Assembly (NCBI GenBank): GCA_029582155.1
Contig: CM055896.1
Span: 10,471,463-10,535,462 of the forward strand
Reading direction: 5' to 3'
From: Panopea generosa
Taxonomy: Eukaryota > Mollusca > Bivalvia > Adapedonta > Hiatellidae
DNA: 64,000 nucleotides
This document shows positions 1,603 through 57,056 of the stretch, one piece after another. The translations under genes were made by a program, and so were the position numbers. Every line of letters begins with the position of its first letter. Position 1 is the stretch's first letter. The notes under the pieces were generated by a model. That model ran no database searches and was not told the DNA's origin. It worked only from the letters and a program-made list of their open reading frames with translations.

Positions 1603-2009
1603 TCAAGTTGGTGATACTAAAGCACCGCTGAATGATGCATCAACGCCATCAATTAGATACTGAAATCCGTGACAATCCACATCAACAACGTCACCAACAA
1701 CCAATGTCAGATATACAGAAGCAGATGCGGCATTATAACCAGATGATGTAGTCTGGTATGTATTAGCGGCAACAGTACCGTCTCCGTTATGCATTATGAA
1801 ACAATATGAATTACCTGCTGCATTTGTATGCAATGTTGAAATATAAAAACTATAGACGCCTTGTACACTACACGTGAACTCCCCTGACGTTACGTTATAT
1901 CCACTGCCCACATTCGTTATAACCGTTCTATAAATAACAACACCGTTATCGTTCATTCCATTACTGAGGGTACTCCGTGGGGCTTTTACAGAGAAGGCGA
2001 CAACTGTTG
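1603..2009 (-). CDS. Gene 1 exon 10: C1q domain and stop
   Basis: The acceptor is TTTCTCTCCTTTAG, whose pyrimidine tract fixes the start. The exon enters in phase 1 and reads ATVVAFSVKAP, then SGEFTCSVQGVYSFY, SASVYLTLVVGDVV and FSGALVSPT before TGA. These are the beta-strand signatures of a globular C1q head of about 135 aa. There is no collagen region, so it belongs to the C1q-domain-containing (ghC1q) type rather than classical C1q. Confidence 0.92.
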
Positions 2010-5000
2010 CTAAAGGAGAGAAAACACTCGATAATCCCAACTGTCAGACCGTAAAATATGCTGCATATAGTTGCAATACATGATATAACTTTGTAAATTG
2101 TAGTAGAACATGTACAGTTGACATATTATGTTATATATCTTAAAAATGAGATACCTCGATTCCCACTTAATTCATATTTATAATCTAATATGTTTAATGA
2201 TTTCTTTAATTTGTTATCTTCAAAATGTAACACAATTCATGTATCTATATTAAAATATCAATCTTTATTGTTGGTACATGTATTTTTATTTAGTTAAAAA
2301 CATGACAAATTTGCAAAATACAATATAAGCGCATTGGAAACAAACGCATTTAAGGTAGATCGCGATGTTCCTATCGTATTTTTTAACATCTGGTGTAAAT
2401 TATCAAAATTCTGTAACCTTTCGTTTTAGCTTTTTTTTCATATAGTACCAAAGTTTCTCGTTAAGAGCATCCCCTAGCAGTACGTATTTTCAGACGATTC
2501 TTGTCGTGTGCAACTTATAAAATAGTAAATACTAATTCAAATATTGTTTTTTGATAACATTTTTAAATTTATAATATATTTTCTCCTGTGACCAGACAGG
2601 ATTTACAAATAGAACATAAATTGTGTTACCTTTACATCTAATCATTACGACGGTGTCGATTAAATCAATCCCGTCGTAATCATAAAATGTAAAAGAACCG
2701 CAAATTTTACTTTATCTGTATAAAATTTATACTCTTATCACAGGAAATAAAATAAGTAATTTACACATGTTATTAAAACAATTTACAATTAATATTGATC
2801 ATAATATCATAATATAAGGGAAAGAGTCAAAAGTCTTCTTGATAATACGTACCGATAAGAGGCGTTGTTATGAATGTGTAAGTTGGATAAACTGCTAGTA
2901 AAATCAAACTTAATTCTACCTGGACACGCATGCGTATTGCACGTGTGGTATTCATCATCTTCTCCAACACATTGTTTCCCTAAAATGGAAGGACTTGGGT
3001 TATCGCAGGATCTTGACCTCGATACCAATCCGCCGTTACAGGACGCCGAACAAACTGACCAGGTAGTCCAAGCTGACCAAGCCCCATCTACAATTTATTA
3101 GTTATGACATGAAATGATACAAAATTATGTTTTTGTTTAATATGCTGCAACACGGTTTTAAACATTGTAATTATGATATTTATTTGGTATACATATTACG
3201 TGTATAAGTTTTAATGCTCTTCCGATTATTTTTAAAATATAGTTTATTATATAAATTTAACTGTTTTTTCAACTAAATATATTATGCTAGTTTGTAGCGA
3301 ATAGCAGAATATAATTTACGTCGAGTTGAAATATAAATAAACAATGTAATTTTGTCAGTTAATTTGATATTGAAATGATGTGTTGCAATTATAAATAATT
3401 GATAGATACAAAAGTAAGTGTATAAAACCGAAATATTTAAAATTACCTGTGCAAGCTCCCGCGAGACACACGCGGTCATCTCTTGCGTCCCCAAAGCAAT
3501 GATTTCCGTCTGGGCCAGGGTACGGCCGGCTACAACTGCGGTCTCTGCGCTGTAAGCCAACACCACAAGACACACTACAAGATCCCCACGCTGACCATCC
3601 ACTCCATCCACCGTGTACTGCAATACGATACCGTATGATGAATAACAGTTATGGTCATTGTTTAATTTGAAATATTGGTAACATTTACCACTAAGGTTAC
3701 TACCTTCATACAGATACTCAACATATTAATAAGAACTAATTGAAAAGTGACTAAGTTTCATATACATGCACATACTTTCCAAAGTCGTCCAATGCCCGAC
3801 TGGAAGTACCACACATTTGAACGTACATGCTCAGTTAGAAATGAAACATTTAACAATAAATATAGACACTAATTATAATAATTATAAGCACAATACAAAC
3901 ATACAGAGGGAACCGCAACAAACATCGCCTTGGAATGTTAAGTGGCATAAACGCCAAGAGGTAGGTCAAACTTCGTTAAAATATGCGCACAACAGCACTC
4001 TTCCCCTCGGCGTCTTATCAAGAATGATAAATAACAACAATAAAACGACACTTAGAAAAATATATTACGCAATATGTATTATCCTACCTGGACAAGCTCG
4101 GACTGAACAATTTGAAACGTCTTGTTGACTTCCAACACAATCTAGTCCACCATGTGAAGGTATAGGTTCCGTGCATGACCGATTACGTAACCTTTGACCT
4201 TGACCACATGATACACTACATCCCATCCAAGTAGACCATGATGACCAATGTCCATCAACTAGGAATTTATTTGGGTGAATAATTTAAAAAAATACTATCT
4301 TATAGGAATATATTGCATGTCAAATTGTCACCCAACCAAAAACATTCATGGAACATGCATGGTAAAGTATATAATGGTGAGGCAAATCAGCTGCAGTGGA
4401 ATTAAATGACACAAAGTCCAATATCACAATTTATTTATGCATTATTTGTGTAAGGGCGTGGTCGTAATCGATGTTGTTATCATTTGTGATTAGGTTAGTA
4501 ATTCTATTGTTCCGAACATGCTTGTGATAATTATGTTTTAAACCATATTTGTATATAACACAATTATTTTTAAGATGTCATTAATCTTTATAATTCAACA
4601 TTTCTGTTTTGTGTAATACATGAACAGCATCCATTTTTAATATTCTGCATGTTTAAACTTAAATATGTAGATGTGTAGGTTATAAGACGCGAGTCAAAAT
4701 AATAATGATAGTAATTAGTGGAACCTTATGGTGAAACAATTTTTAAGAAAAGCACCAAATTGGGAAGAAATATAGGATTAGGTCAACATCGAGACCCACT
4801 GCATTCAAGTTACTTTCAAAATGGCGGAAATATTCAAGATGGCCGACAAATTGGCTGCTTATATAACAATAACATAGTTTTATATATATAAATGTACAGT
4901 ATTTGATCATATTTGATAGATCTTTTTGACAAATGTTATCAAAATGTATTTGTATTTTATAATTTTAATGCTTTATTTCGAAAATATATTTTAAAATATG

Positions 5001-8000
5001 AAAAATGGGCAAAATATTGGCTAAATGGGGTATATACATGTACGAATTAACCATCCAAGGTACCAAACATTATTTCAAAGAAATAACCGCAAATTAAAAG
5101 TAATGAATAATCTTAATTAACATTTCGTTCGTGAACGTTCATACTTTAGTTTTTTTGTTAACTGAAAACTGTCTGTTACATTCGTTGGTTAATAATCATT
5201 TCATAAATTAATAATTCTCAAGCATCGCTTGTTATCTGATAAACGTTTCAAAGTTCATTAACATGATATACAATAATTACAGTCGTTTTGTCACGCCACT
5301 AGGTAGGACGGATCAGTTACATATTTAATAATTGACGAATGCACCCCTCTTTCTCATTCTGTTCAGTCTGTTGTCATGATTTATAATTATAACATAAGTA
5401 TCACAAACACGTAGATGACTGTACGTACCCAATGGACAGAGGCCACACCATTTACGACATACCGTCTTGGCATGGGCCACGTCACCGCAAATGTTGAAGG
5501 TTCCACTGAATAGTTCACAGTTATAGTCCGGGTCATCGTGACATTGACCGTCCGTACTGGTTATTACTGACAGAACAATAGTAACATTATTATTGTTGGT
5601 AGAAAGTGTAGAACTTATTCAAAGAAACGTTAATACCAAAGTGTGACAAAATAGATGTAGATACATCTTGTCCTATGCTTTCAAATACGAATCTATTATA
5701 TTATCGAATGGTATAGGTAAAATTTATTTATTAATTACTTTTGAATTCTATAAATAACCTTACTTTGTGTAGGGCTATTGCAAATCTTTTTGTTACAGTA
5801 GTCCGTCCCACAACACTGTTGACAACCCATGGATGACTGGCTGCTGCGATCGTCCACCCCCCTCCCCACTATTGACGATTGGCTGCTGCGATCGTCCAAC
5901 CCCCTCCCCACTATTGACGATTGGCTGCTGCGATCGTCCAACTTCCTCCCCACTATTGACGATTGGCTACTGCGATCGTCTAACATCCTTCCCACTATTG
6001 ATACAGGACTGGCTGTACTCGTTCCTCTGCATTGCTATGGGTAAAAGAGTATTTTGCATTTTCAATAAAAGAAAAAAAAGACACAATCAAAATTCTTTTG
6101 AATAATTACCAACTCCCTACCCAGACTATCATCTTTCAAACCACATGTGTTCAGGACATATGAAGGAGGTAGAAATAAAACTTTAGTTCTCTTTTTCTTC
6201 TTCTTTCAGGGCTTTGTACTACAGTGAATTATGTTTTTCTAGCATGAGATAAATGGTCAGTATTTTAGAAATCATCACTGAAAATTTGTGGTTGATACCA
6301 GCTTTCTGAACAATTCTGTGTCATTTCAAAATTGTTGGTTCAAACCGCATCGCGGTCGTATAGATAACATATTCTCACTCTGGAAATTGATAGGTCTCAC
6401 AAAAGCATTGAATTTAAAAAAAAGCCCAACCTGGTCAAGGTTTGCTTTTTCCCTTTATAATTGCATATCTTGAACCAGTGAAGAATTTGAGCCCAGGCAC
6501 ATGCTGCATATTTTGTTTTCTCACTGTGTTTTGGACATAAATGTTACAATGGAGTCCTATTGGAAATGTAAAAGTGGTGTAAGACGTATAGTTTAATACA
6601 CCCATGTGTCATTAAAACAACATTGTCGTCATAGTATAAAACCAAGCAGTAAAGGGATGTTTATTTTTACCGCGTAGTGTTAAGAACATAACAACCTAAA
6701 TTCTGTTGAACAAAAGTCTTGTATCGAAAATAACATTAATATTTACTTACTGCAAACGGTCTGCATCCCAGAGTGTAATCAGTGCTGTTTCCTAAACCTC
6801 TTGCCTCTGTGAAACATTCCTGAAACAATGAGAATACGAAAGTGTAAGTATGACGAAATGAACATGTCAATATCATTTCGAAACATTCTACAGGTAGTCT
6901 AAACTGTTGTTAAAATAGGAAACCGCGCGGTACAACCGAAGGTGTTAATGCGGAGATAAATGTAACCATGTTTATTAAGTCTTTCAAGGTTTACGGCTTT
7001 TAATTTGATAATGTATATGTTTAATCGTAACGGTTGACATTTAACACAATATATTATACTTATTTTAAAAAGAAATGAACACATCTCACCTCGTCCAAAG
7101 AGCACTTGACCACTAACGAACAGTCAGATATAATCGGGATATTGGTACAAGAAAAACATTCCAATGTTTCTGAAAACACATATGTATCAAACATTATATT
7201 CGATAGAACAACAGACGTTTATGCAGACACATTCACAATGTTATCATGTTTATAAGAGCGCATTTATGGTAACATTTACTGTTCTATATTTTTATTTTTA
7301 GAAACTATAGACGCTAACCTTATACTAGCTATAGATTAACAAAATCTGCACTACTTTATATATTTCCATTCTTCTGTAAATTGGCGTCTGGAAGAAATCC
7401 ATCAAAACAGTCTCAACTCAATAAAACTAATGTAACTTGTTATTGCATAATGCCTATCAAAGCACTTCCCAAACCATGTACTTCAATATCGTACCATCAC
7501 TACCAAAACATCTACTAAAGTACTTGCTGATTATGTGAAACATTTTATTAATATTTATCAAACTTTTGACCAACTGTAAAATGGCCGGCAATCAATCAAA
7601 CATACAATGCGCCGAAGAATCAAAGGATTTGGCCTGGTACCCGTCTGTTAAAATGATAAACAAAGTGCCTCAATGAGACGTTATTGAAATATCTCTGACG
7701 AAATACGTCACATTGCATAACCTCTACCAAAATAAGTTCATTGCACATTCCGGACCAAAATACATTATCATGCAAGTCTCCACCAAAACAACTTTAACAT
7801 TGGACGCTCTTTATCAAAAACATTAACATTACAGGATCTCTGCCAAACTGTATTAAAGTATTCATTTGTTTGCACTCAATTTCCAATAGGTAGACACAAT
7901 GAGTCTCTATCAAGGATGAAACAAAATTATCAATTACATCTTGTCGCATATAAATAAATTTCATGATTTTTATTTGTGTCAGTATTATATTGGAAATTGA

Positions 8001-9127
8001 GTGTTAAAAATTAGATATATTTTACGTACTTCCCTACATTATATTAAAATTGTACGTAATCTATCAATATATATCAAATTTTGTTACATGTAATACGTAA
8101 GACGGAAACACGGTGCCATGTACACTTTGTTATATGTAATACGCAAGACGGAAACACGATGCAATGTACACTTTGTTACATGTAGTACGCAAAACGGAAA
8201 CATGCTGCCATGTACACTTTGTTACATGTAATACGCAAGACGGAAACACGCTGCCATGTACACTTTGTTACATGTAATACGCAAGACGGAAACACGCTGC
8301 CATGTACACATTGCTTCATGTAATACGCAAGACGGAAACACGGTGCAATGTACACTTTGCTACATGTAATACGCAAGACGGAAACACGGTGCAATGTACA
8401 CTTTGCTACATGTAATACGCAAGACGGAAACACGCTGCAATATACACTTTGTTACATGTAATAAGTAAGACGGGAACACGCTCAATGTACACTTTATTAC
8501 ATGTAATACACAAGACAGAAACGCGCTGAAATGTTATCTTTGTTACAGACGAAAACATGCTCAAATTTAAGATTTATTGCATTCTTTTATTTACTTTTAG
8601 GCCACCAGCCCATGCAACATGTTATATACATATAAATGTTAACAAAACTGCATATGCGTTTTCATGAATATGCAAGACAGCTATGTGATTAATGCATTTA
8701 TGTATCATTTGAACTATATTGCATTGACCAAACACTGGCGTAATTGCCAACGATACACAGGGTTTATTAAGATTAAGATTGTTGTGTACATTCGATTGTA
8801 TATAAAATATAAAAATCTTGGTGACAATAACTAAGCTTTGATTTGATTCCGTCAGCCCGTTAACAATATATTAACTATTAAATTACCTGATACATCGACA
8901 TGCCAGACCGCCAGTAGAACTACCAATAAACCAACACCTTAAAGTATAAATAGAGAACAGTTTAATCAAACTCTACTGGTATATATATGGATTCTTTTAA
9001 ATCCAGACGTAATCCAAACGATGTAACTAATAGCACATGGTTTAAGTCATTTTCTTTATTTGATGCATCAGTTTAAATTTAAATAAATCTGTAATAAAAT
9101 TATCAAATAATGTATACCAGAATGCAT
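1603..9127 (-). CDS. Gene 1: secreted Ly6-ShKT-TSP1(x3)-C1q protein, complete, 10 exons, 511 aa
   Basis: Seen: ten minus-strand exons (9118-9127, 8887-8937, 7090-7169, 6751-6819, 5764-6034, 5429-5566, 4088-4258, 3447-3617, 2920-3087, 1603-2009), each bounded by AG and GT, add to 1536 nt with consistent phase and one terminal stop. Order: signal peptide (about aa 1-20), Ly6/uPAR-like domain (21-161), ShKT-like domain (161-207), three TSP1 repeats (207-377), C1q domain (377-511). Known of the families: Ly6 domains are three-finger disulfide folds, ShKT is a six-cysteine module, TSP1 binds glycans and matrix, and globular C1q domains trimerise and bind varied ligands. There is no transmembrane segment or collagen stretch, so a soluble product is inferred. 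It is the best candidate for a functional member of the cluster. Function is unknown; innate recognition is a guess from the domains. Exon joins need transcript support. Confidence 0.85.
2920..3087 (-). CDS. Gene 1 exon 9: TSP1 repeat 3
   Basis: This 168-nt exon is phase 1 at both ends and encodes a complete repeat: GAWSAWTTWSVC, SASCNGGL, RSRSC, GKQCVG and TCNTHAC. The SASC-N-G-G variant sets it apart from the SVSCG of repeats 1 and 2. The same subtype is third in genes 2 and 3. Confidence 0.9.
3447..3617 (-). CDS. Gene 1 exon 8: TSP1 repeat 2
   Basis: This 171-nt exon is phase 1 at both ends and encodes a complete repeat: [27 protein letters not shown], and HCFGDARDDRVC. All six cysteines and three tryptophans are present. 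The orthologous exon in gene 2 carries a stop at the Arg of GDARDD. Confidence 0.9.
4088..4258 (-). CDS. Gene 1 exon 7: TSP1 repeat 1
   Basis: This 171-nt exon is phase 1 at both ends and encodes one whole thrombospondin type-1 repeat: DGHWSSWSTW, CSVSCGQGQ, RNRSC, then three more cysteines. It has six cysteines, the W-x2-W pattern typical of C-mannosylation sites, and R residues for the stacked Trp-Arg core. Confidence 0.9.
5429..5566 (-). CDS. Gene 1 exon 6: ShKT-like domain
   Basis: This 138-nt exon is phase 1 at both ends. Six cysteines sit in QCHDDPDYNC, FNICGD, TVC and RKWCGLC. The spacing, the Asp-rich start and the terminal C-x3-C-x2-C fit the ShKT/SXC module found in many secreted invertebrate proteins. 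The WCGLC ending is shared by all four copies. Such modules occur in non-toxic extracellular proteins, and nothing here points to a toxin role. Confidence 0.8.
5764..6034 (-). CDS. Gene 1 exon 5: Ly6 C-terminal part with four 14-aa repeats
   Basis: This 271-nt exon enters in phase 0 and leaves in phase 1. It starts QCRGTST and ends with the diagnostic GCQQCCGTDYCN (CC-x2-D-x-CN) of Ly6/uPAR domains. Between them lie four tandem 42-nt units reading SIVGRxLDDRSSQS. Genes 2, 3 and 4 have one unit or a degenerate one, with exons of 139, 145 and 139 nt. The extra 126 nt is exactly three units, so frame is kept. The antisense open frames here come from the same repeat. Confidence 0.88.
6751..6819 (-). 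CDS. Gene 1 exon 4: Ly6/uPAR-like domain, middle part
   Basis: This 69-nt exon has phase 0 at both ends, with TTTCAG before it and GTAAGT after it. It encodes ECFTEARG... and YTLGCRPF, the middle cysteines of the three-finger fold (C-F-T and G-C). Counterparts of identical length exist in genes 2 and 3. Gene 4 lacks it. Confidence 0.85.
7090..7169 (-). CDS. Gene 1 exon 3: Ly6/uPAR-like domain, first part
   Basis: This 80-nt exon runs from TTTTCAG to GTGAGA. It encodes the opening LECFSC of a three-finger domain (C-x2-C), then SDC and VKC, ending CSLDE. It enters in phase 1 and leaves in phase 0. The equivalents in genes 3 and 4 are also exactly 80 nt. Confidence 0.85.
7441..7870. repeat. Degenerate ~30-bp repeat in gene 1 intron
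   Basis: Recurrent 'ctaccaaaac...' phrases at roughly 28-32 bp spacing, clearest from 7725. Strongly diverged. Confidence 0.4.
8083..8545. repeat. 46-bp minisatellite in gene 1 intron
   Basis: About ten units of a 46-bp sequence with the phrases ttacatgtaatacgcaag and cggaaacacg. It lies between the signal exon and the first Ly6 exon. The Cys-rich antisense reading frame is an artefact. Confidence 0.93.
8887..8937 (-). CDS. Gene 1 exon 2: signal-peptide core
   Basis: This 51-nt exon lies between AAG and GTAA. In the frame set by exon 1 it reads VGLLVVLLAVWHVDVS, a hydrophobic core with a plausible signal-peptidase site near its end. Gene 3 has a 51-nt exon in the same phase and of the same character, and gene 4 a 54-nt one. 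Confidence 0.8.
9118..9127 (-). CDS. Gene 1 exon 1: 10-nt start microexon
   Basis: The exon reads ATGCATTCTG followed by donor GTATAC, giving M-H-S and the first base of a Gly codon. The start was chosen because it supplies the phase needed by the next exon, and because gene 3 has an exon of the same length beginning ATGCAT in the same relative place. A TATA-like motif lies about 40 nt upstream. The exon is too short for ORF-based gene finding. Confidence 0.7.
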
Positions 9128-17909: not shown

Positions 17910-18077
17910 TTGGACACGCATACGTATTACACGTGTGATATTCCTCATCTTGCCCAACGCATTGTTTCCCTAAAATGGAAGGGCTGGGGTTATCGCAGGA
18001 TCTTGACCTCGATACCAATCCACCGTTACAGGACGCTGAACAAACTGACCAGGGAGTCCAAGATGACCAAGCCCCGT
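17910..18077 (-). pseudogene. Gene 2: TSP1 repeat 3 exon
   Basis: 168 nt, open, six cysteines (WSVC, SASC, RSC, KQC, HTC, YAC). The last exon base is A instead of the G seen in genes 1 and 3, leaving CCAA before GTAATG. Reading through the donor meets TAG after CPSNA. No C1q exon was recognised downstream. Confidence 0.82.
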
Positions 18078-18382
18078 CTACAATTTATCAACTATGACAT
18101 ATCAAGAAATAATAGAAAATGTGTAAACGTTAATATATAACATTGCTATCTAATTTAGATAATTGTTTACATGTTAAAAAATATACCCTTTTATAGACTT
18201 TACATTACAACTGAATATAACTATGCATTTTTAAAATGAAAAGTGAAATGGAATATACATCCAGCTTAAACAAAATCAGAATACATTTGGTGCACTTTGG
18301 TTTGAAATTGAGATCTTGGTGTATACCATTTTTAAATGATTGATGAAGACACAAATACAAATATATATACATTAACAATTAC

Positions 18383-18553
18383 CTTTGCATGCTCCCGGAA
18401 GACATACGCGGTCCTCTCATGTGTCCCCAAAACAATGATTTCCATCTGGGCCAGGAAACGGCCGGCTACAAGTTCGGCTTCTGCCTTGTAAGTCAATGCC
18501 ACAAGACACACTACAAGATCCCCAAGATGACCATCCACTCCAGCCACCGTGTA
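18383..18553 (-). pseudogene. Gene 2: TSP1 repeat 2 exon with TGA
   Basis: 171 nt with intact splice sites. The Arg codon of GDARDD is TGA here (18417-18419), and the conserved GVGLQRR is GIDLQGR. The exon is symmetric, so skipping would preserve frame. Confidence 0.85.
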
Positions 18554-18986
18554 CTGCAATGTTATAACGCAATAATGAATAACAAAACTACCCTTGAATT
18601 CACGTTGTCCTATGATATTAAGCCAGCATGAATGATCATACAATTGGTAACATTTGCAACTCTCGTTATTTCAGTAATACGGATAACGAATATATTATTT
18701 AGAATAAATAGAGAAGTAGCCAAGTTTCATCAAAACTTTTCCAGTGTTGTCAAGTGTATCAGCTTAAAGTTAATAGCGTGACGAAGTGGATGATGAACCA
18801 ATTAACAGTCACCAAAGCGGCACAAACACAGTCAATACATTCACCAATAATGACAATTTGCATAATACAAAACTGCAAGTGCCAACAAAGGTCACTGCCG
18901 CCTTGGAAAGTTCAGAGACAAAATCGCCCGCCGCGGAGCTTAAACTTTGTTGTCATGTTATGAAGTAATTGTTATAAAGTATGTAC

Positions 18987-19157
18987 CTGGACACTCTCCG
19001 AGTAAACAATTTGAAACGTCTCGTTGACTTCCAACACAATCCAGTCCACCATGGGAAGGTCTAGGTTCTGTGCATGACCGATTACGTGACCTTTGACCTT
19101 GACCACAGGATACACTACATCCGGTCCAAGGAAACCATGATGACCAGTGTCCGTCCA
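18987..19157 (-). pseudogene. Gene 2: TSP1 repeat 1 exon
   Basis: 171 nt, phase 1 at both ends, fully open: DGHWSSWFPW, CSVSCGQGQ, RNRSC and six cysteines. Donor GTACAT. Confidence 0.85.
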
Positions 19158-19548
19158 CTAGGAATACGTTAAAGTGATTACATGTACTTTAAATATCATA
19201 TCTTAGGAATACACCACATATAAATACCAAACCAAAACATTATTTACGGTTTTCATGTAAAGTATATTGATACATTATCTAAATAAAAATATGAAGCGAT
19301 GGTACTCTGGTACAGCGGAGTCCACGAAATAGTGAATACCACACCAAAACTTTACAATCCAATGTCACGAAATAACGAACAATATGGATTCTAATGTTCC
19401 ATGTTTGTATTATGTACATGTCTACAGAATTTGTCAAATGCTTGTTATATAAGTACAGAAACGAGTGGCGAAACGGTTCAGTATTTGGCTAAGGCAAATA
19501 ATATGTTAGAGGATATGTACGTGTAACAAATGAGAATATATAAACATA

Positions 19549-38843: not shown

Positions 38844-39221
38844 CTGAATTGATATAACAACAAGTAAAAAAATGGAGTCGCTAAGCTATAACATAAAATA
38901 ATACGCATTGCAATTTTATTAAGATAAGTACACTATTTGCTGCTATTGTTAAATAATATGTGATAAAATTTGAATCACAGAATGAGTCCAAGTAAAGTTA
39001 ATACGATATCTAAATCCTTTTAGATAATAAAACGCTTTTGTAGTCGGTGCAGACCTGGTAAAAGTCATTATTACTTGTGTTGCCTTTTTTATTTCCATTT
39101 CTGATTTACCGGTTTGATTCGATTCGGAATTATAACCAGTTTTAACTCAACAAAGCATGTTTATAACACGTAATGAAAATATCAACTGCCATTCAAGTGA
39201 CAATCAACAAATACATCTAAC

Positions 39222-39366
39222 TTTGTGTAGGCTGAGTGCAAATCTGTTTGTTGCAGTAGTCCGTTCCACAACACTGTTTACAACCCAGAGATGATTGACT
39301 GCTGCGGTCGCTTACCTCCCTTCCAACTATTGATAAAGGACTGCCTGTGCTTGTATCACTACATTG
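39222..39366 (-). CDS. Gene 3 exon 5: Ly6 C-terminal part
   Basis: 145 nt, phase 0 in and phase 1 out. It has one copy of the unit LSIVGREVSDRSSQS, then GCKQCCGTDYCN. This is probably close to the ancestral single-unit state of the repeat expanded in gene 1. Confidence 0.87.
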
Positions 39367-39969
39367 CTGTGGAATCAGATTGAGATGGCTTAAGTTATTT
39401 TCACGCATGGAAATGAAATATATAAATTGTACTTTGAGGGAAAGCTAAATAATATAACATAGCATACAGTTATCATCAGGGTCAATTTGGCTACTTCTTC
39501 CGTGTAATAGAGGAACACCAATTCGGTAATACTTCAATGTACTGTCATTTAAAATGAAATAAAAAAATATAACAAAAATACTCATATAATTATAATGATT
39601 ACTGTACAAATTATTTAGTTTTGTCAGTTGAGTTAAATATTTGCTATTTAAAAATACGCGGTAACTTAGTTGAAACAAGTCTTAAAAAAACTCTATGTTT
39701 GTGATTACATACGTATTCAAGATTGCATTATTTTATCAATCTAATATACTTAATAACATTACTTTCTGAGCTTATTGCGTGTTATGAGAAAACAAGGGCA
39801 CGTGGTATTGTAGTATTTGCATGTCATGTTGCTTTTATTATGCCGCATGGTTTTCCAAGAAAGATATAGTATATATTGTGCTTATAATAAATATACATTG
39901 ATTATTTTTTTGTGGTGATTTTTGAGTGCTATGTAATGGATGTATCGTTTACTATTATTATTTACTCAC

Positions 39970-40038
39970 TGTGTAAGGTCTACAACCTAGGGTGAATGTA
40001 GGGTTGTTTCCGAAGCTATCCTCCTCCGTGAAACATTG
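39970..40038 (-). CDS. Gene 3 exon 4: Ly6/uPAR-like domain, middle part
   Basis: 69 nt between TTTCAG and GTGAGT, encoding QCFTEEDS... and FTLGCRPY. Phase 0 at both ends. Confidence 0.85.
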
Positions 40039-41597: not shown

Positions 41598-41677
41598 CTC
41601 ATCTAAGGAACATTTGGCCACTGACAGACAGCTGGATACATTCGCAATACTTGTGCAGGAAAAACATTCCAATGTAT
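41598..41677 (-). CDS. Gene 3 exon 3: Ly6/uPAR-like domain, first part
   Basis: 80 nt between TTGTAG and GTAAGC, encoding LECFSC, SSC and AKCSLDE. Same length and phase as in gene 1. Confidence 0.85.
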
Positions 41678-41846
41678 CTACAATTGATTAACCACAGTAA
41701 CTAGCCAAACATATGATTGGACTGTATATTGATGTTAATACAAATAATGGTGTTTGTATGCCTTTGATGAATAATAGATATCATTTTCTCAGTGACATTA
41801 ACTATTTTTGAAGGAGTGCAATAACAGTTTGTAAATTCGCTGATAC

Positions 41847-42330: not shown

Positions 42331-42381
42331 CTGCTTGATCTGCATGCAAGACAATCAGTATAATGACCGCTATAACAATAC
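42331..42381 (-). CDS. Gene 3 exon 2: signal-peptide core
   Basis: 51 nt; with exon 1 it reads MHKGIVIAVIILIVLHADQA, a clear hydrophobic signal sequence. Donor GTACAT, phase 1. Confidence 0.82.
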
Positions 42382-47075: not shown

Positions 47076-47341
47076 TTACATCGCTGTTAGAAATGGGCCA
47101 TTAAAAATTGTATGGTGATTTTTACTGATACGTTCAAAAGTGCCACACCATAAATTGACCACATCAACAACATACAAAGTGAGATAGACAGAGGCGGAGG
47201 CAGTGTAGGACGGAGTTGACCTGAAGGTATCGTAGGCATAAACTCTTATGGTGGTATAGTGGTTGTGTCTAATATCACATTGTGGGTAAGTTGCGATACT
47301 ACTTGTAAACGATAAGAGCCCCGTCTTTAGAAAATCGACTA
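47076..47341 (-). CDS. Gene 4: C1q domain with internal deletion
   Basis: The C-terminal two thirds aligns with C1q of genes 1 and 3: TGLLSF, QCDIRHNHY, TASASVYLTLYVVDVV, IFNGPFLTAM, then TAA. A possible acceptor (ATACATAGAG) gives phase 1 and VVDF, matching the VVAF start of the other copies, followed at once by the later part. About 40 aa of the domain are missing. The acceptor has a poor pyrimidine tract. Whether this can fold as C1q is doubtful. Confidence 0.65.
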
Positions 47342-50300
47342 CTCTATGTATTGGACTAAGTACATTAGTTTACTTTTATTATTTATCTTTTGGATCAAAC
47401 TGTTCATGGTTTTCATTAAAATAAAACATGGTCTGTTAATTTATTTTTTTAATATGTTTTTGAAGCTTCCAAATGATTGTTCTACTAGATATTTGTAAAT
47501 AGATTGAATGCATTTTTTGGATAAATTTAATACACAAATAATGACCCGTTATAATTTAAAAAAATGGATTGTATACCAGATATATTACCGTTGTAAAACT
47601 TAATCCCACATTTAATGAACTAAGCCTAATAAATGCATTCCCGACATTCAACAAATTACGATGGCTACATTAATTAAACAAATAGTTCGAAATATATATT
47701 ACCTGGACAGTTGACCAATGTGCAATTAGATATATCATGATTATTTCCCAAACAGTCGGGTCCACTGGATGTCAGTGTGTAATTTACACATGACCTATTA
47801 CGTGACATTTGGCCTTGGCCACAAGTCACGTGACAGCGTGTCCATGGCGACCAAGAAAACCATTGCTTGACAGCTGTTGAAATAAGATGATATAATCTTC
47901 ACAAAATATTTGTTTGATTAAATGTATATGTTATTGTATTCTTTGTGGTGCAATGCTGTTCAAGGTCATACTATACTTCGAAATTAATTTGAAATATAAA
48001 CATGTACACTCACATATAATTACTGATGCAATTTCATAAAATGTGTCTTGTTTATTAATATGTCTGTAATCGGTGACAGATTAGACAGCTTCCATGAAAA
48101 GAAAAAACACGGTTTAATTAAATATACAACGAGCGTAGTGAAATCAGCAATACGCCGTACACCCCACCCAAACCAACGGGCATAATGAAATCAGCAATAC
48201 GCCGTACACCCCACCCAAACCATCGGGTTATAGAGTTATGTATTATATTTTCAAATAATAGTTAATGATATCCATAACGACGTAAGACTGATGTTGCGTT
48301 TATTCATAATATCTTGAAATAGGACCCATTTGAAGCATTGAAGGCGTCCAAGAAAAGGAAATGGCACACTCAGTTTTATTTAACCTGTTTATGAGGTGTG
48401 GGTAATTCAAACGATTTCATTATTTTTTTGCATGGACAAATATTAAAATACAATTATCTGGACAACCATCGTGAGAGTTTGTCTATCCGTGATGCCACTC
48501 CTTCATCTATCTGTATATAGAATATTGAAGTTAATACTCCATGAACGCATATCTGTGAACGGCGTTATAAGCTTGTATATATTGTATGATAAAACAATAT
48601 TGCCGAGATATTCCAATTGTTTATGACTTTTAATAGTAACTGTATGGAAACATCAATTAATATTCCGGTATAAGATGCTGGATATTTAATGTTGAAATGA
48701 CTGTATACCACGTGATAGTGAAATATGAACACTAAATAACGGACTTGCAAACCGTTAAGTACATACAAAGACGGGAGGGCCGTATGGTACTTCACACTGA
48801 TATAATGTCAAAGATAAAGTTGATTTGACACCGACCTACTCTTGCAGTATTTATAAACAACTGGTGATATTTTAGAACAACTGACATTGGTTCAAGGTTG
48901 TCAACTTGATCATGTAAACACAGAAACGAACACTTAAAGGGGGCTTAAATACGTATTTTCCTTTTATTGAATAATCCTGTTCATTACCTAAATATGATGA
49001 TTGATTGATTGAATATTTAGCGTCATTCTTATGCCATCGAGGGCTAACAGACGATCAGTTAACCTAACCACTGTTTCCTGGGATTAACCAGTACTCGAGC
49101 ACACCCCGTCTCCGCAAGTAACTGATAACTTTCCCACTTGAATCAGTGGTGAGAGATGAATGATAATGAGACACAATTTCGTATATCAATCATCACGGAG
49201 ACTGTTGCCGGGCGGGGGATTCGAACTCACGACCCCTGGATTGATAGTCAGACGCGTAACCGACTGAGCTAATCGGGCCCGGCTACCTAAATATGAATAC
49301 TTTCGGATAAAAAGTATCCGTTGAAAAACAGAACACAATAAACAAAAATAGACTTGTTTTTACTGTGGCTGTTCATGAGTAGTAAAAATATATGCAACAT
49401 ATTTACACGCTCTCGCACCGGCTTCAGTGGGATTCAGATGTAAAACGTTTTAAAATGCATGGTTGGTAAGACGTTTTGCAGAGTTTGCAGTTAACGCAAC
49501 TGGTGCATGGTTTTACAGGTGTGAATGGTCTCAATGAGTTTAGAATATATGTGTGTGTGGGGGGGGGGGGGGGGAGGGGATATATAATCTGACAGCAGCA
49601 TAAAACTATATCTATCTGTACTTTTTTAAAATGTATAAGACAGAAAGATAAATATTTATTTCAATAACATGCTAAGAGTGTAAATATTTACATACAAAGA
49701 TATCAAAACTTTATACATTCACTAACATGTAGACTTCTCTAGTTATGTATATTTTGTTAAACATATGTTTATGCAGAACCAAGAACAGTTGTACATTTGG
49801 GGGGCGTATGTATGTATGTATGTATGTATGTATGTATGTATGTATGTATGTATGTATGTATGTATGTATGTAGGTAGGTAGGTAGGTAGGTAGGTAGGTA
49901 GGTAGGTAGGTAGGTAGGTAGGTAGGTAGGTAGGTAGGTAGGTAGGTAGGTAGGTAGGTAGGTAGGTAGGTAGGTAGGTAGGTAGGTAGGTAGGTAGGTA
50001 GGTAGGTAGGTAGGTAGGTAGGTAGGTAGGTAGGTAGGTAGGTAGGTAGGTAGGTAGGTAGGTAGGTAGGTAGGTAGGTAGGTAGGTAGGTAGGTAGGTA
50101 GGTAGGTAGGTAGGTAGGTAGGTAGGTAGGTAGGTAGGTAGGTAGGTAGGTAGGTAGGTAGGTAGGTAGGTAGGTAGGTAGGTAGGTAGGTAGGTAGGTA
50201 GGTAGGTAGGTAGGTAGGTAGGTAGGTAGGTAGGTAGGTAGGTAGGTAGGTAGGTAGGTAGGTAGGTAGGTAGGTATGTATGTATGTATGTATGTATGTA

Positions 50301-53300
50301 TGTATGTATGTATGTATGTATGTATGTATGTATGTATGTATGTATGTATGTATGTATGTATGTATGTATGTATGTATGTATGTATGTATGTATGTATGTA
50401 TGTATGTATGTATGTATGTATGTATGTATGTATGTATGTATGTATGTATGTATGTATGTATGTATGTATGTATGTATGTATGTATGTATGTATGTATGTA
50501 TGTATGTATGTATGTATGTATTTATGTATGCTTGATTGTATGTATGTATGTATGCATTATGTTTATACTGATGTCTTATCTTTATCTGTTGAATGCTATG
50601 TCTCCTGTTTAAATTTTAACATTGCTTATCAATCGTTAAACAGATATGGTTTGGTGTTGACTGGGAGGGGAGATAGCATGAAAGCTGGTGTCTAGTTAAG
50701 CTGTTTATTCCAGTAGTGACCTACATCTAATGTAGCGGTCAGAGAGGAACCATGTAGTATAACGAATCAAGAACAGCAACTCATTTAATGATGATAGTGT
50801 GTATATTTAACATAGCCAGAGTTGTGTCCCATTATATAACTTAAAACATTTATAATCTGAATGTATATCACTGTTAAATTCAAATTTACCACAAGAATAA
50901 AGTAATTTAGCTTTTATCTAGAGACCTTGTTTACTAATTGATACAAAGAGCAACCATGGCAATAAACATACGATAAGGTTAAATAACTGGAATTGTTAGT
51001 CAAATATATTTTAGTTGGATTGAGACTTCGTCATGAATCAGAAGTATTGTATTTTTAGATGCTGTATTACACATATTTAAGACATACAAGATTAAAACAT
51101 GATTTCCCTTGATGAAAACGTAAAGTAAACAAGCAAAAAACAAGCTGATTTATCTATCACAACACTTCATTTAACCAAGTATGAGGCATTTAATAAAATA
51201 TCAGGTTAATCAAATTCACTTAATGTGTTAGCAAGGCATGTAGATTATATAATGTTTGCGGTAACATTTATGAGCTAAGATATTGTAGAAACTCAAGCTC
51301 AGCTCATAAGTGCAGTAAATGGTCACGTGGTGACCGTATATTACAATTTTTGGAACATTATGCTTACGCATATATTAAGTCGTAAATATACATCTACAGG
51401 ATGCTTATTTTAATTACAACACATACAGAAAAGTGACAATATTAGGTCGCGACCTTGAAATGATCAGTAAAAAAACGCAAATGTATCTTGATTAAACCCG
51501 TACAAACTGAAGAAGTAAGATTACCTGTTAAAGGACAGAGGCCACACCATTTACGACATGTTATCATGGAATTATGGGAGTCTTGACAAATACCGAACGT
51601 TGTGTTTAAGAATCTGCAGTTTGAGTTTGGAGCGTCACTACACGGACTATCCGTGCTGACTGCAACTGAAGTAGAAACATACAAGAGTATAAGAGAGTAA
51701 AGTTACAGGCACGTGATTTACAATTCTAAACTATGTATCATACTTTGTTAATGACAGAGAAGGTTCTTTTATAAATATTAAAAATTATCGCAATTTAATG
51801 AAATGCACTGTTTTTGTTTTTATTTAAGCTGTTACATACAAATGCTCATTTTGTTACATTTATTTCAATTCAAATGTTGACAGACTTAAGTAAGAACTAC
51901 TTATACTTACCTAATCTTCTTTCGGTATTCAACTTGTATTCGATATTGAAGAGTTTCATTATTTGAATGCGAAAAGCAAACGAAACTTCTATCTGATGCC
52001 AATCTTGATAATCTTTGAAAACATATTCTATCCCAGAATGTGATATCTCCCCAATCTGGTCTGTTAACCAACAAAGAAAATACCGGGAATAATAAACATG
52101 TACCACAGTTCATAGCAACCAATCGAACGCTTAATAAACTGTCACGTCATCCTATCTTTCAGTTGAAGCCATTGATAATCAACGCGCTAAAATGTGGCTT
52201 TCCCAGCATTGCTATTTAATAATTTACACAATCGAGAGGGCTGGGTCAGTTAACAGACTATTTGAAACATCAGACATCATGTTTCCCGTACAAAGTAAAG
52301 GGTCCAACATGGATTAAAATGGGAGACGCAATGCGTATTTACTGTCTTGCAGAAAAATATTCGGAGTTAATTTAATGATATGGATATATTTTATATATTA
52401 ATACATTGAAAGCCAAATGATTCTATGTTTTACCTTGCGGCTTATAAACAGCCACTCCCTAAACAGAGATAGAAAATACACAGACAACAACCCCGTCCCA
52501 TTATTGCAATAAGGTATCAAGTACAGATGCAGCAAGAAGGCACTCGGCACCTTATTGCATGAATGGTGCGCGCCCTTAATTTGATTATTCGGTGTACTGT
52601 TTACGTATGGTCGAATGTTCTGTCTGTCTATTTTGAATACTCTGTCAACCTTTGGATTTGGTTTTATTATGAATGGTTCCATTTTGAATAAAACAAATGT
52701 CTTACTGTCTGTAGTATGGGCACATAAATGTTTATTACACAAGTCACCAGCACAGCACTGGCGGCATCCTGTGCTGGACGATCTTCCAATGATATTTCGG
52801 CCGACTATGGATGGCGAACTGTGGTTGGTTATATCCATACATTCCTGAAGTAGGCAATACATAATTATTACTTTCTATCTCGTCAAATTATCCGAGTGAG
52901 GTATATCAGTAATTTTACACACACTGTCAAATGGTCCTCATTGGCCAAGTGATCTAAAGCGCCGTCTCATGATCATTTACCTCTCATCACTAAGGTCGTA
53001 GGTTCGAGTCTCGCTTGCTCGCTTAAACAAAAGTGAGAAAGCTTCCCAGTTACATGCTCAAATTCATTTTGAGGTATTTCTCGACCAATAAAACTGATTA
53101 TGCCATATATAACCGGGAACGTGTTATAAATGGCGCAAAGGCCCAATAAAAAGCCTAATGAAAACACACTGTCAAATAATGTTAATGCAGTATACAAGTT
53201 CCTTCTTCAAGTTTCTAAAATTACTATATGACCTTTATAATAGTTTTGTTTGTTCTTATATTATGATTGCTGGTGTTTCGCTTTAATTATTATTAGTGTG

Positions 53301-55725
53301 AATATTTACATACATATATGTGTAAACGCAGGCCTTACATATGACCGCAAAGCATACATTACATACTGTTTCATACACAAGACAGAAATATTGTTTAATT
53401 TATTTCTAAAAAATAAAATATATATAGTGTTATGTAATGTAAACATATACATAACATACATTATGTGTATACACATACCTTACATGTGACAACAAAACAA
53501 ACTATATATAATGTATTGTACACAAGACAGAAGCATTGTTTAATTTTTTCTTCAAAAATTAAAAATAAGCAAATGTATTATATATACCTTATGGCAAAAC
53601 TCGTGCATTTATTACGAAACACGTGATTAAGAGAATATCTTCATAACATATATATACTGCAAGTTGGCGCTTCATAGATAGACTCATTACTGAATATAAG
53701 TTGTATTCTTTAATTTTTATCTTAATTTATATTTGATATGAAATCGTGGAGCATATGCCTCACTCGAATAACTTTATTCAAATCTTGTTTGTTATGATAT
53801 ATGATGTCATCTCAAACACTGATATTTATAACTTGTCATTTTTCGTTCTATAGCATACCTACTTACCTCACCGACTGAATATCTTTTTGGTGTGAAGCAA
53901 TCTGTTGCGTTTTCGATGTTGCTGCAAGACCAACAGTCCAGCGAATCTGAAAGTACAGGTAAAAGCCATATTGATACAGTATAGCACAATAGTAAGCAAG
54001 GTTTTTGAAATATGTCTGTTGTTTTCCTTGATGATATATTTATACTTTCCTTTCAAAAATGTACTTTTCTTTAAAAATATGACCAACGTCCTTCAAAGAT
54101 AGATTGCCTGTACTTTTCTTGCAAATTATGCCTGTCCTTTCCTTTATGTATATTAATGTGAATTATATCTGTACCTTTCTTTAGACATGGTCACATGCTT
54201 TTTTGACAATATGATTATACTTGACTTTTGAAATAGCCATGTTCTTTTATTTGCCTATTCCCGATATGTCTTTTTACTTAATATATTGAGCTATTATGTG
54301 TCCGTTTGTAGATGTGGCCTTCGTCTTAAAGAAATGAGCAAAATATTATTGAGGTAACCAATTTATTATGCTTCTAACACTAGAATACCAAGATACATTG
54401 AATAAAGACTTTTTTTACGTAGGCTTGGAAAAATAACCATTTGAATCGCATTAAAAAAAGACAGACGACCAATTTGAGGTTAATCTCAGTGTGTACACAA
54501 CAGTTTTCAACAATTTTAACATATCGCAAAAGAAATGAACAAATAATTGATTGGAAATATTTACTCGTTTTGTTTACGTGTGCACATACTGAAAGACATG
54601 AAAACGTTTTCCTTGTCGATTTCGTATTTTAAAACTGAAAGGCTTAGCAGGATGTTTTTTAGAAGGATGAATTGTTATTAAAAAAGATTGAATCATTAGT
54701 TAATTGATCTGACTTCATTTTTTTGTTATTGATATAAGGTCCGAGTTCCATTGGACACCTTTACCTGTAAACAATTATTTAAATAAACTCTTTAAATTAT
54801 AGTTTGTTACCATCGCCTGCTGAGTCTCTCATAACAGGTATGTACTAAACAGGCTAGGATCTTAGGGTATTTATTAAGTTTTAATGTTTATAGCACTTTT
54901 ATGGTATTTTAACAAAAATAAATATACGTGTTCATGTTTAATTGAAAGGAATGTCAATAATTAAGCCAGATATTCAGCCTATATGCTCATAATCATTTGG
55001 AATATCTATAATATTAGCAGATTTGCATTGCAGTTGGGGGCTGAGAGTCAATAAATGATTGATACAGAGATGGAAACGAGCATTCCATTGTGTAGCAAAA
55101 TGACCAATGGCCGACAACTCACTAGGGAAGAATACAAATATACTCAAAATAAAATTAACAATTTTATTTTTTACATGAACAAAATTATGAATATACAATT
55201 GTACAATAAATACAAATTATTGAAACTTTACTCAAAAAATTTAAAGCAAATACCGTTCTAATAATGTCCTAAGATGTTCACTTTCTTACACTGCAGTTTA
55301 ACTGATGTCGCGGTACAATTTTGTTACACGTTATATTTTACTGATGTCGCGATACAAAATAGTTACATGTCATATGAATGTTTTACATTGTTTAAAAACA
55401 CAAATATATTTATGTATTCAAATACTACTTCCACGTCCGGATTATTCGTAGATATATTCTCCAATCGTCCCTTATGGCGATGGGCGTATCATCAGGGTTA
55501 TCTTCCCATGCTCTACGTAATACTACGTAATACTACGTAATACTGAGCTACTTTGGCCTTACGTCTCCTAGTGCCGAATTAAATGACGTCAGGAGTGCCA
55601 CGGCGTCGATATGACGAGTTTGTGTGATGCGCGTCCTATGAAGGTATTACCATCAGCTGACTCATGTTTACTTTGTAAGCGTTACGGGACCTACGTCACA
55701 CATATGGCAAACAAAACTGCAACAA

Positions 55726-55763
<38 letters not shown>

Positions 55764-57056
55764 TTACTCAATATGTAATAACATTACGTTTATGATTAAT
55801 CATCTATCAATGCCATTGTAGTGTTATCAATATATAATAACAGTACATTCATTTCTTATCATCTATCAGTTTCATTGCAGTTGTATCAATATATGATAAC
55901 AGTACATAAATTTCTTACCGTCTGTCAGTTTTATGGCAGTTTTATCAATATATCAGTACATTCATATATCACCTCTATTAATCTCATGGTAGCAAAATCA
56001 TCACTTCATATTTACACATTATATAATTTATACACTGACGGACAAATTATGTATCTATTCGCTTTGTAAAAAGAATAAACACAATTAAATTACACATATA
56101 CAATTATAAAATGTCGATTTTCAATACCTCATCGAAAACATAATATAAACAGTTCAAAATACGTTCCCAAATACCTCGGCCTATATCCTTATGAGCAACT
56201 TTCAATACTGCTGATATCAAATTAAATTGACCATATTCCAGTTTGACTAAATATCATCAGTTTATCCAAAAACTACTGATATCTGATAATGTCGATATAT
56301 AGCTATCGGACATTTAAACTACTAAACTATAGGTAAACTAATATGTATATAAAAAGAACTCACTCAGATACCGTACGTTTTGGTCAAGTTAAAATGCTGG
56401 ATCTATTCTGTCACAACGTTTCCGCATGATGGTATATTACTAACAGACAAAAGCTTATGATATTCATACGTGTATGTATACAAGCACAACCACATATATC
56501 AGGTGAATTTCAAGCAAAACATGAATTAACTAGTCACCCAGGCATCGTACGATTCAAAATGCACTAAAATGCTATATGTAAAATATGGTAAGATTTGCAA
56601 TAATAAAACCGTTTAATTTTTCTGAAATGTTCAATACTCAACGGATTTTAATGAAATAAACGTCTACGTCTAAATGACTTATTTTTTAACCCAAAGATAA
56701 ATGTGTAAACATATCTTTAAAATGTCTTGCCCCTATCTATAAAGCGATATTTTTAACAAACCGGCATTATCTGACTCTATACATGTCTATATAATGCAAC
56801 TAACTTTGAACTTGCCGACCCTGAGAATTCAGGCCATATTAACTAGCTATTTTGTTACACATTTACTACTTAGAAAAATGGCTGGAAATGCATGAGTGAT
56901 TTTTAATTGTTTGAAAAGGAAATTGAGTGAACAAAACCATTGTAGATTACAATACACATTGTTACACATTAAAAAAATCTAGTAAACGGTATTATTATTT
57001 ACCTACAACATCAATCAAAAATAACATCAGCAGAACTGGTACATGTACGATATTCC
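47076..57056 (-). CDS. Gene 4: reduced Ly6-ShKT-TSP1-C1q gene, start exon unresolved
   Basis: Seen: exons 57003-57056, 53867-53946, 52706-52844, 51525-51665, 47703-47873 and 47076-47341 are all open and in compatible phase (851 nt, ending in TAA). Compared with gene 1 it lacks the middle Ly6 exon, TSP1 repeats 2 and 3, and the N-terminal part of C1q after the first strand. A 10-nt start exon like those of genes 1 and 3 would make 861 nt, or 286 aa, but I could not identify it: the ATGCAT at 58324-58329 is followed by an in-frame TAG before donor GTAATT. It is the most diverged copy. Either it is a shortened functional paralogue or an early-stage relic; lack of stops in six exons favours the first. 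Confidence 0.65.
47703..47873 (-). CDS. Gene 4: single TSP1 repeat
   Basis: 171 nt, phase 1 at both ends, open: QWFSWSPWTRC, HVTCGQGQMSRNRSC and six cysteines. The CGQGQ and RNRSC features match repeat 1 of the other copies, so repeats 2 and 3 were lost, or never gained, on this branch. Confidence 0.87.
48144..48236. repeat. Two-copy ~46-bp duplication
   Basis: gaaatcagcaatacgccgta and caccccacccaaacca occur twice in succession within the gene 4 intron. Confidence 0.85.
48998..49283 (-). mobile_element. Complete tRNA-derived SINE
   Basis: The minus strand begins GCCGGGCCCGATTAGCTCAG with A box TTAGCTCAGTCGG and B box GAGTTCGAATCC, then a body, and ends in a TTGA/CAAT-rich simple tail. It is flanked by 13-bp target-site duplications (tacctaaatatga at 48985-48997 and 49284-49296). 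It is inserted in the large gene 4 intron between ShKT and TSP1. Confidence 0.88.
49559..49580. repeat. Poly-G tract
   Basis: A run of G bases with one A, following a short GT run. Confidence 0.9.
49806..50560. repeat. Three-block tetranucleotide microsatellite
   Basis: (TATG)n to about 49872, then (TAGG)n for about 400 bp, then (TATG)n again to 50520 with decay after. It is in a gene 4 intron. The MYVC frames are artefacts. Confidence 0.97.
51525..51665 (-). CDS. Gene 4: ShKT-like domain
   Basis: 141 nt, phase 1 at both ends, open. Six cysteines: SPC, SNC, GIC, ITC and RKWCGLC. One codon longer than the gene 1 exon. Confidence 0.82.
52036..52262 (+). mobile_element. Copy of the 43.7-kb interspersed repeat
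   Basis: gatatctccccaatctggtc, cgaacgcttaataaactgt, and atgtggctttcccagcattg followed by ctatttaat parallel 43660-43890. It lies in the gene 4 intron between the ShKT and Ly6 exons. Confidence 0.6.
52706..52844 (-). CDS. Gene 4: Ly6 C-terminal part
   Basis: 139 nt, phase 0 in and phase 1 out: ECMDITNHSS, SIVGRNIIGRSS, GCRQCCAGDLCN. The CC-x2-D-x-CN signature is intact. It joins directly to the first Ly6 exon because the 69-nt middle exon is missing. Confidence 0.85.
52935..53165 (+). mobile_element. tRNA-derived SINE-like element
   Basis: ccaagtgatctaaagcgccgtctca serves as an A-box region and cgtaggttcgagtctcgc as a B box, with a unique body after it. In the gene 4 intron between the two Ly6 exons. 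Confidence 0.6.
53300..53570. repeat. ~165-bp direct duplication
   Basis: ccttacatatgaccgcaaa... and ccttacatgtgacaacaaa... each lead into tacacaagacagaa and attgtttaatt. Two diverged copies in a gene 4 intron. Confidence 0.65.
53867..53946 (-). CDS. Gene 4: Ly6/uPAR-like domain, first part
   Basis: 80 nt between TTTCAG and GTAAGT, encoding LDCWSCSN, TDCFTPKR and SVGE. Same length and phases as genes 1 and 3. Confidence 0.8.
54030..54300. repeat. Degenerate ~50-bp repeat
   Basis: Recurrent 'tgcctgtactttctt' and 'aatatgacc' phrases suggest a decayed tandem array in the gene 4 intron. Confidence 0.4.
55280..55375. repeat. Two-copy ~45-bp repeat
   Basis: Two units with tttaactgatgtcgcggtacaa / tttactgatgtcgcgataca, then gttacacgt / gttacatgt. 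Confidence 0.6.
55725..55762. repeat. (AT)n(AC)n microsatellite
   Basis: An AT dinucleotide run passing directly into an AC run. Confidence 0.9.
55800..55965. repeat. ~59-bp tandem repeat
   Basis: Three units with tatcaatatataataacagt, catctatcag and ttcattgcag. Confidence 0.7.
57003..57056 (-). CDS. Gene 4: signal-peptide-like exon
   Basis: 54 nt between ATCAG and GTAAAT, phase 1 out. It reads NIVHVPVLLMLFLIDVV, hydrophobic as in genes 1 and 3. An alternative acceptor 6 nt upstream is in frame. The start codon is not located. Confidence 0.6.

Follow-up and report, generated by a model that had tools for sequence, protein, structure and literature searches.

A predicted LU, ShKT-like, TSP1 and C1q mosaic gene with three damaged tandem relatives in the bivalve Panopea generosa

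Among the large gene families of bivalves that have expanded in tandem are the C1q-domain proteins, which are regarded as lectin-like recognition molecules (PMC6835236; statements on published systems refer throughout to the cited passages of each paper). In the oyster, 262 of 476 C1q genes encode a coiled-coil stalk and 111 lack one (section 2.1 of the same paper), 16 with a SUEL lectin domain are singled out as an unusual mosaic, and 79 are 'other/uncertain', which are not itemised in that section and could include genes similar to the one described here. A review of the LU (Ly6/uPAR-type) domain considers it unlikely to be a bona fide mobile module, names a few mosaics (GPIHBP1, SP-10 and TGF-beta receptor ectodomains) and states that the protruding loops of the domain generally take part in protein binding (PMC6600238). 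ShK and C1q domains are both over-represented in the digestive-gland transcripts of one mussel, but not in one protein (PMC5549309). Here, a stretch of 64,000 nucleotides of Panopea generosa DNA (GenBank assembly GCA_029582155.1, contig CM055896.1, positions 10,471,463 to 10,535,462 of the forward strand; 'the window', in which all positions are given) was analysed, which contains a predicted gene ('gene 1', or copy 1) combining LU, ShKT-like, TSP1 and C1q modules, together with three related copies (copies 2, 3 and 4). The interpretation favoured here, with about even confidence, is that copy 1 is a single intact gene for a soluble, secreted LU/ShKT-like/TSP1x3/C1q mosaic, most likely an opsonin-like recognition molecule, and that copies 2 to 4 are paralogues, damaged today but formerly under selection.

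Gene 1 was rebuilt from the raw window sequence, is well supported and runs on the minus strand from 9127 to 1603 in 10 predicted exons (Table 1). All nine introns have GT-AG boundaries, with phases 1, 1, 0, 0, 1, 1, 1, 1 and 1, and the spliced frame comprises exactly 511 codons plus a stop, uninterrupted, in agreement with the complete product of 511 amino acids given for this interval by the original prediction. The predicted protein consists of a signal-like peptide, an LU domain, a ShKT-like module, three TSP1 repeats (A, B and C) and a C1q domain, the order proposed earlier and seen again in the spliced translation and with Pfam. Phase-1 introns bound the ShKT-like exon, each of the three TSP1 exons, and the LU exon set as a whole. 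The signal-like peptide is a candidate recognised by hydrophobicity and splicing, and a polyadenylation-signal motif begins at 1280. Intron 2 holds a 46-bp tandem array (10.2 copies, 90% matches, 8080-8547).

TSP1 repeats form rods that are modified at C-mannosylation-type (WxxW) and O-fucosylation-type (CxxS/TCxxG) motifs, and every TSP1 repeat of gene 1 carries both motifs and six cysteines. Pfam TSP_1 matched three stretches (97.6 bits against a cut-off of 21.6, expectation value (E) 4.5e-28) and Pfam C1q matched over its full model, 1-127 (59.2 bits against 23.7, E 6.1e-16), and the TSP1 and C1q identities can be regarded as secure at the level of sequence comparison. The domain searches proposed earlier for the 511-residue translation thus gave TSP_1 and C1q above their cut-offs, while LU and ShK fell below theirs. 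The best solved-structure match of the protein was properdin (E 2.1e-42), over residues 198-370, the TSP1 part. No relatives were found when viral contigs were searched with the TSP1-C exon and the C1q alignment, or when phage records were searched with the C1q exon.

The LU domain was judged by the published definition (section 2 of PMC6600238). In copy 1 all ten plesiotypic cysteines (25, 28, 37, 43, 49, 66, 72, 144, 145 and 150) are present, followed by Asn 151, the domain ends in CC-x4-CN, and two further cysteines, 141 and 155, may pair with each other; the N-terminal domain is called putatively LU-type on this signature only. The domain is flanked by phase-1 introns, as is typical, but is split over three exons, with a phase-0 intron at each end of loop 2, whereas the typical layout has two exons and the intron at the tip of loop 2. 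The ShKT family pattern comprises six cysteines with a CxxxCxxC ending. The spacing in copies 1 and 4 is C-x7-C-x9-C-x9-C-x3-C-x2-C, which has this ending, and the weak Pfam ShK match of copy 1 covers the full model, 1-37; the label is kept at 'ShKT-like', a weak assignment from the cysteine pattern and this match, because Pfam ShK scored below its cut-off or not at all and structure prediction failed. Both N-terminal labels had been put more firmly in the original prediction than the sequence warrants.

From cysteine 72 to the next cysteine there are 68 residues in copy 1, compared with 24, 26 and 24 in copies 2, 3 and 4 (counted by eye for copies 2-4). By our mapping onto the published definition, the enlarged stretch would correspond to LU loop 3 (section 2 of PMC6600238), and in copy 1 it contains an in-frame tandem repeat of a 42-nt unit that is single in copies 2-4. 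The units are nearly identical, which suggests recent expansion, and hence the length of loop 3 may possibly vary between individuals. An unlikely extension of this would be that LU is a true mobile module that was shuffled into a C1q stalk protein and whose loop 3 is being lengthened by an in-frame 42-bp minisatellite, so that a recognition loop in a soluble immune molecule would be longer in some individuals than in others.

When the modules of copy 1 were compared with the window by tblastn, the surviving modules of copies 2-4 were found at E values from 4.4e-4 (copy 4 LU part 1) to 4.9e-38, as against 0.008 for the best match elsewhere in the window. Profiles of the modules, built partly from the same window sequences (so that their E values for the modules themselves are not independent), detected no further copies in the window; the best outside match was at 0.34 to 4 for five of the six profiles, and the 14 rows shown for the TSP1 profile were all known modules. 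All four copies lie on the minus strand with their retained modules in the same order, as had been predicted; all modules are present in copies 1 and 3 only, however, and copies 2, 3 and 4 are all damaged. The earlier description of a 'tandem family of secreted proteins' is therefore right as to related, duplicated copies and overstated otherwise: by sequence the array appears to consist of one intact-looking gene (copy 1), one nearly whole but interrupted copy (copy 3) and two remnants (copies 2 and 4).

Whether one protein-coding unit is involved was judged from how the copies diverged. Same-position pairs of TSP1 repeats (n = 12) are 49-91% identical (mean 67), and different-position pairs (n = 33) are 29-50% identical (mean 40); the two ranges just touch, but every one of the 10 repeats has its best match at the same position. 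As the repeats pair by position, the unit of duplication was the whole gene. Duplication of TSP1 repeats within one gene after the genes had split was rejected on the same pairing. The ratio of nonsynonymous to synonymous substitution rates (dN/dS), calculated with a Nei-Gojobori script without a significance test, was 0.18 between copies 1 and 3 (432 codons), 0.32 between copies 1 and 2 (275 codons) and 0.20 between copies 2 and 3 (275 codons), the value of 0.32 being consistent with copy 2 having decayed later. By module, copies 1 and 3 gave 0.26 for C1q (131 codons), 0.13-0.22 for the LU parts, 0.22 for TSP1-C and 0.44 for TSP1-A. Every computable ratio among the copies was below 1, C1q included, which supports one protein-coding unit. 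Matching phases at every junction, the order in four copies, the pairing of TSP1 repeats and dN/dS together argue for one gene over a chance row of exons.

Starting from what is seen in the sequence (module order, splice sites, intron phases, the open frame and dN/dS below 1), we infer the following architecture and function. Gene 1 would have arisen by shuffling of phase-1 exons and tandem duplication of the whole gene. C1q domains form trimers; those at the C-terminus of the gene 1 product would trimerise into a hub, the three TSP1 repeats would form a stiff stalk where a coiled coil is usual, and the LU and ShKT-like modules would sit at the far tips as protein-binding heads. The C1q domain might then hold a microbial or glycan target and the LU/ShKT part a second partner, with LU loop 3, extended by the coding minisatellite, as an evolvable contact. 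The product is probably an oligomeric recognition protein, a role proposed by functional analogy with the bivalve C1q-domain proteins. The earlier suggestion of a recognition or matrix molecule is a reasonable one.

Several observations weigh against this interpretation. The start exon supplies just 10 coding nucleotides, which makes the N-terminus the least secure part of gene 1, and the C1q domain carries three cysteines, one of which is thus without an intradomain partner. TSP1-A is the least constrained module (dN/dS 0.44-0.52), and saturated dS left no ratio for the ShKT-like module and TSP1-B between copies 1 and 3, or for the whole of copies 1 and 4 and of copies 3 and 4. The LU domain of copy 1 is below the Pfam cut-offs, Toxin_TOLIP scoring 21.0-21.1 bits for the cut-out domain (E about 5e-4) and 15.1 in the whole protein against 21.2, and UPAR_LY6 scoring 15.5-17.3 bits against 24.8, with E 0.007-0.009 on the cut-out domain; such a cut-off is a threshold of recognition, not of biology. 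Pfam ShK reached 9.6-9.9 bits in copy 1 and 10.6 in copy 3 (stop read as X) against 20.9, with no match for copies 2 and 4. AlphaFold was uninformative both on the C1q exon (2 rows, predicted local distance difference test (pLDDT) score 35.0) and on the ShKT-like exon (3 paralogous rows, pLDDT 47.9). Mildly, a signal-like start (MPLNIPRRC...IIIII) with weak phase-1 donors, GTGTCT or GTTAAA, is found at 3948-3870, in the intron between TSP1-A and TSP1-B, and is probably due to chance.

The most serious alternative, which we consider possible but clearly less probable than a recognition role, is that the single-gene mosaic has a structural job as a matrix, mucus, byssus or shell-associated adhesive protein. 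Such a role has precedents in a byssal protein of Pinctada, which has 24 TSP1 repeats (PMC4597212), and in limpet mucus proteins, some with TSP1 and another with ShKT (PMC7333891), but the TSP1 adhesive proteins are far larger (191.6 kDa; 1860 and 2500 amino acids) and carry vWFA, vWFD, EGF or cystine-knot modules, and none of them has C1q or LU in the cited passages. The sequence does not decide between a recognition and a matrix or adhesive role.

It is considered unlikely that the gene is right and its N-terminal labels are wrong, the LU and ShKT-like modules being unrelated disulfide modules. In favour of this are, besides the ShK scores given above, the LU domain of copy 3, which like that of copy 1 is under the cut-off (Toxin_TOLIP, 19.4 bits against 21.2), and the irrelevant F-box model, which slightly outscores ShK on the ShKT-like exon of copy 1 (12.9 bits, also below its cut-off). 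Among solved structures, no significant match was obtained with profiles of the LU domain (best 0.79, prostate stem cell antigen) or the ShKT-like module, or with the LU sequence on its own (best 0.14, a venom protein whose name suggests the three-finger kind; GPIHBP1 at 0.43), and NCBIfam scans gave no match for the LU domain of copy 3 or the ShKT-like exon of copy 1. Against it, the LU domain shows the complete set of ten cysteines, ends in CC-x4-CN and is flanked by phase-1 introns, in agreement with the published definition (PMC6600238), and the ShK match, weak as it is, spans the entire model.

Somewhat less likely still is that the whole array has decayed, copy 1 included, its frame being open by luck or after a recent loss of expression. 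All three neighbouring copies are damaged and the LU loop of copy 1 is expanded by a repeat, but 511 open codons over ten exons, intact splice sites, all expected LU, ShKT-like and TSP1 cysteines and a dN/dS well below 1 speak against decay of copy 1. A split into two adjoining genes, one for a small secreted LU-ShKT protein and the other for TSP1-C1q, is very improbable: LU genes mostly stand alone (PMC6600238) and the signal-like start at 3948-3870 lies after TSP1-A, though there is none between ShKT and TSP1-A, but a donor ends the ShKT-like exon and the next exon resumes in the matching phase 1, the order was retained in four copies despite a C1q identity of only 44-45% between copies 1 and 3, and, in a scan, eight of the nine introns of gene 1, including those before TSP1-A and C1q, contained no signal-like start with a phase-1 donor. 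No in-frame Met leads into the TSP1-A or C1q exon of gene 1. A separate start for the C1q exon was also rejected, since none of the six ATG frames of at least 20 codons in the last intron is open into C1q and none is signal-like with a phase-1 donor.

Table 1. Predicted exons, modules and coding repeat of the four copies in the window.
Feature	Position	Strand	Remarks
Copy 1 exon 1	9118..9127	-	Predicted; coding start ATGCATTCTG (M H S + 1 nt), phase 1 donor
Copy 1 exon 2	8887..8937	-	Signal peptide hydrophobic core (VGLLVVLLAVWHVDVS), phase 1-1
Copy 1 exon 3	7090..7169	-	LU part 1, cysteines 1-4, phase 1-0
Copy 1 exon 4	6751..6819	-	LU part 2, loop 2, cysteines 5-6, phase 0-0
Copy 1 exon 5	5764..6034	-	LU part 3, cysteines 7-10 and two extra, phase 0-1
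Copy 1 coding tandem repeat	5838..6001	-	42-nt unit, 3.9 copies, 94% matches, in frame in exon 5 (LU loop 3)
Copy 1 exon 6	5429..5566	-	ShKT-like six-cysteine module, phase 1-1
Copy 1 exon 7	4088..4258	-	TSP1-A, phase 1-1
Copy 1 exon 8	3447..3617	-	TSP1-B, phase 1-1
Copy 1 exon 9	2920..3087	-	TSP1-C, phase 1-1
Copy 1 exon 10	1603..2009	-	C1q domain and stop codon
Copy 2 LU part 2	22184..22252	-	
Copy 2 LU part 3	20863..20985	-	
Copy 2 ShKT-like exon	19795..19932	-	Fourth cysteine to Tyr; 8-nt excess at exon end if homologous donor used
Copy 2 TSP1-A	18985..19158	-	
Copy 2 TSP1-B	18381..18554	-	In-frame stop
Copy 2 TSP1-C	17911..18081	-	No C1q found downstream
Copy 3 candidate signal exon	42331..42381	-	Phase 1-1; 51 nt, as long as exon 2 of copy 1; scan gave two more candidates
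Copy 3 LU part 1	41598..41678	-	
Copy 3 LU part 2	39970..40038	-	
Copy 3 LU part 3	39223..39402	-	Match extends upstream of likely acceptor
Copy 3 ShKT-like exon	38704..38847	-	In-frame stop
Copy 3 TSP1-A	37811..37984	-	One cysteine to Phe
Copy 3 TSP1-B	36810..36980	-	
Copy 3 TSP1-C	35075..35248	-	
Copy 3 C1q	31778..32170	-	Complete; Pfam C1q 62.4 bits
Copy 4 candidate signal exon	57003..57062	-	Acceptor 57062 or 57056; one other candidate 57298-57244
Copy 4 LU part 1	53867..53950	-	One cysteine to Tyr
Copy 4 LU part 3	52710..52820	-	
Copy 4 ShKT-like exon	51529..51669	-	Six cysteines kept; no Pfam match
Copy 4 TSP1	47701..47871	-	Single repeat, position A type
Copy 4 C1q remnant	47085..47315	-	Second half only; no Pfam C1q match

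For copies 2-4, no exon carrying the start codon could be identified. Copy 2 (22252-17911) is nearest to copy 1, with 79-90% DNA identity over the TSP1 exons and some flanking sequence; LU part 1, C1q and a signal exon were not found for it in searches of the window. A 37-bp tandem array (6.9 copies, 19538-19793), the unit of which includes a splice-donor-like sequence, starts at the end of its ShKT-like exon, and satellite-like arrays upstream, at 22573-23612 (47-, 60- and 250-bp units) and 24099-24895 (32- and 389-bp units), occupy the expected site of the signal exon and LU part 1 that copy 2 lacks. In copy 3 (42381-31778) all modules are present, but the in-frame stop in the ShKT-like exon interrupts it and a cysteine of TSP1-A is lost; as a speculation, copy 3 might still yield a shorter protein by skipping the ShKT-like exon, which would preserve the frame because that exon is phase 1-1. 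In copy 4 (57062-47085) no stop was seen in the surviving parts, and LU part 2, TSP1-B, TSP1-C and the first half of C1q were not found in the window; its C1q remnant was named by similarity to copy 1 (8e-7) and copy 3 (1.6e-9). Position 57056, at which the array had originally been taken to end, is one acceptor choice of the candidate signal exon of this copy.

Among other features of the window, a GTAG tetranucleotide array (about 179 copies, 99% matches, 49806-50520) was listed as long open reading frames because it is open in several frames, and an 18-bp minisatellite (about 66 copies, 32729-33915) between C1q and TSP1-C of copy 3 accounts for open reading frames of 201 and 210 amino acids in that interval. 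Long open reading frames at 32.7-33.3, 49.7-50.6 and 59.1-59.6 kb were rejected as genes, as they lie inside tandem repeats. A dispersed repeat at 10943-11024 (upstream of copy 1), 43804-43885 and 52177-52219 (near copies 3 and 4), with 85-86% identity, may be either a mobile element or a leftover of the unit that was duplicated. Scanning the window for Rfam families and tRNAs gave no matches.

No description of the LU/ShKT/TSP1/C1q order was found in the open-licence literature, weak evidence of absence given that subscription papers were mostly outside this scope. The mosaic architecture proposed earlier for gene 1 is supported by the sequence, and its novelty is a weaker point, animal proteomes not being covered; gene 1 would be a new combination within the C1q-domain kind rather than a new kind. 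A TSP1 stalk tipped by LU and ShKT-like modules would be another design for a C1q-domain molecule, gene 1 would exemplify the reuse of LU as an exon-shuffled module, of which PMC6600238 gives few cases, and the minisatellite in the LU loop allows a test of whether a contact surface varies between individuals.

Compared with described systems, gene 1 resembles the bivalve C1q-domain-containing (C1qDC) proteins (sC1q-like type II, sghC1q and SUEL/C1q; PMC6835236) in predicted secretion, the C1q domain and tandemly duplicated genes, but its stalk would be built of three TSP1 repeats preceded by the LU and ShKT-like modules, and dN/dS among the window copies is below 1, whereas episodic positive selection is described for the six largest oyster C1qDC clusters in the same paper. 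With the LU proteins CD59 and LYNX1 (PMC6600238) it shares the ten plesiotypic cysteines, the Asn after the tenth, a predicted signal exon and phase-1 end introns, and it differs from them in having two extra cysteines, a larger loop 3 and a phase-0 intron on each side of loop 2, where they have a single intron at the loop tip; unlike stand-alone LU proteins, its LU domain forms the N-terminal part of a mosaic. Molluscan mucus and digestive-gland ShKT proteins (PMC7333891, PMC5549309) are alike in that ShKT is a small disulfide module of secreted mosaics, but there it is joined to peptidase or lectin modules, and the cited passages mention no LU or C1q in them. Properdin is alike in its consecutive TSP1 repeats in a soluble chain; the match to it leaves out C1q, LU and ShKT and is no proof of orthology, and the domain layout of properdin differs from that of gene 1, in which three TSP1 repeats are combined with C1q, LU and ShKT-like modules.

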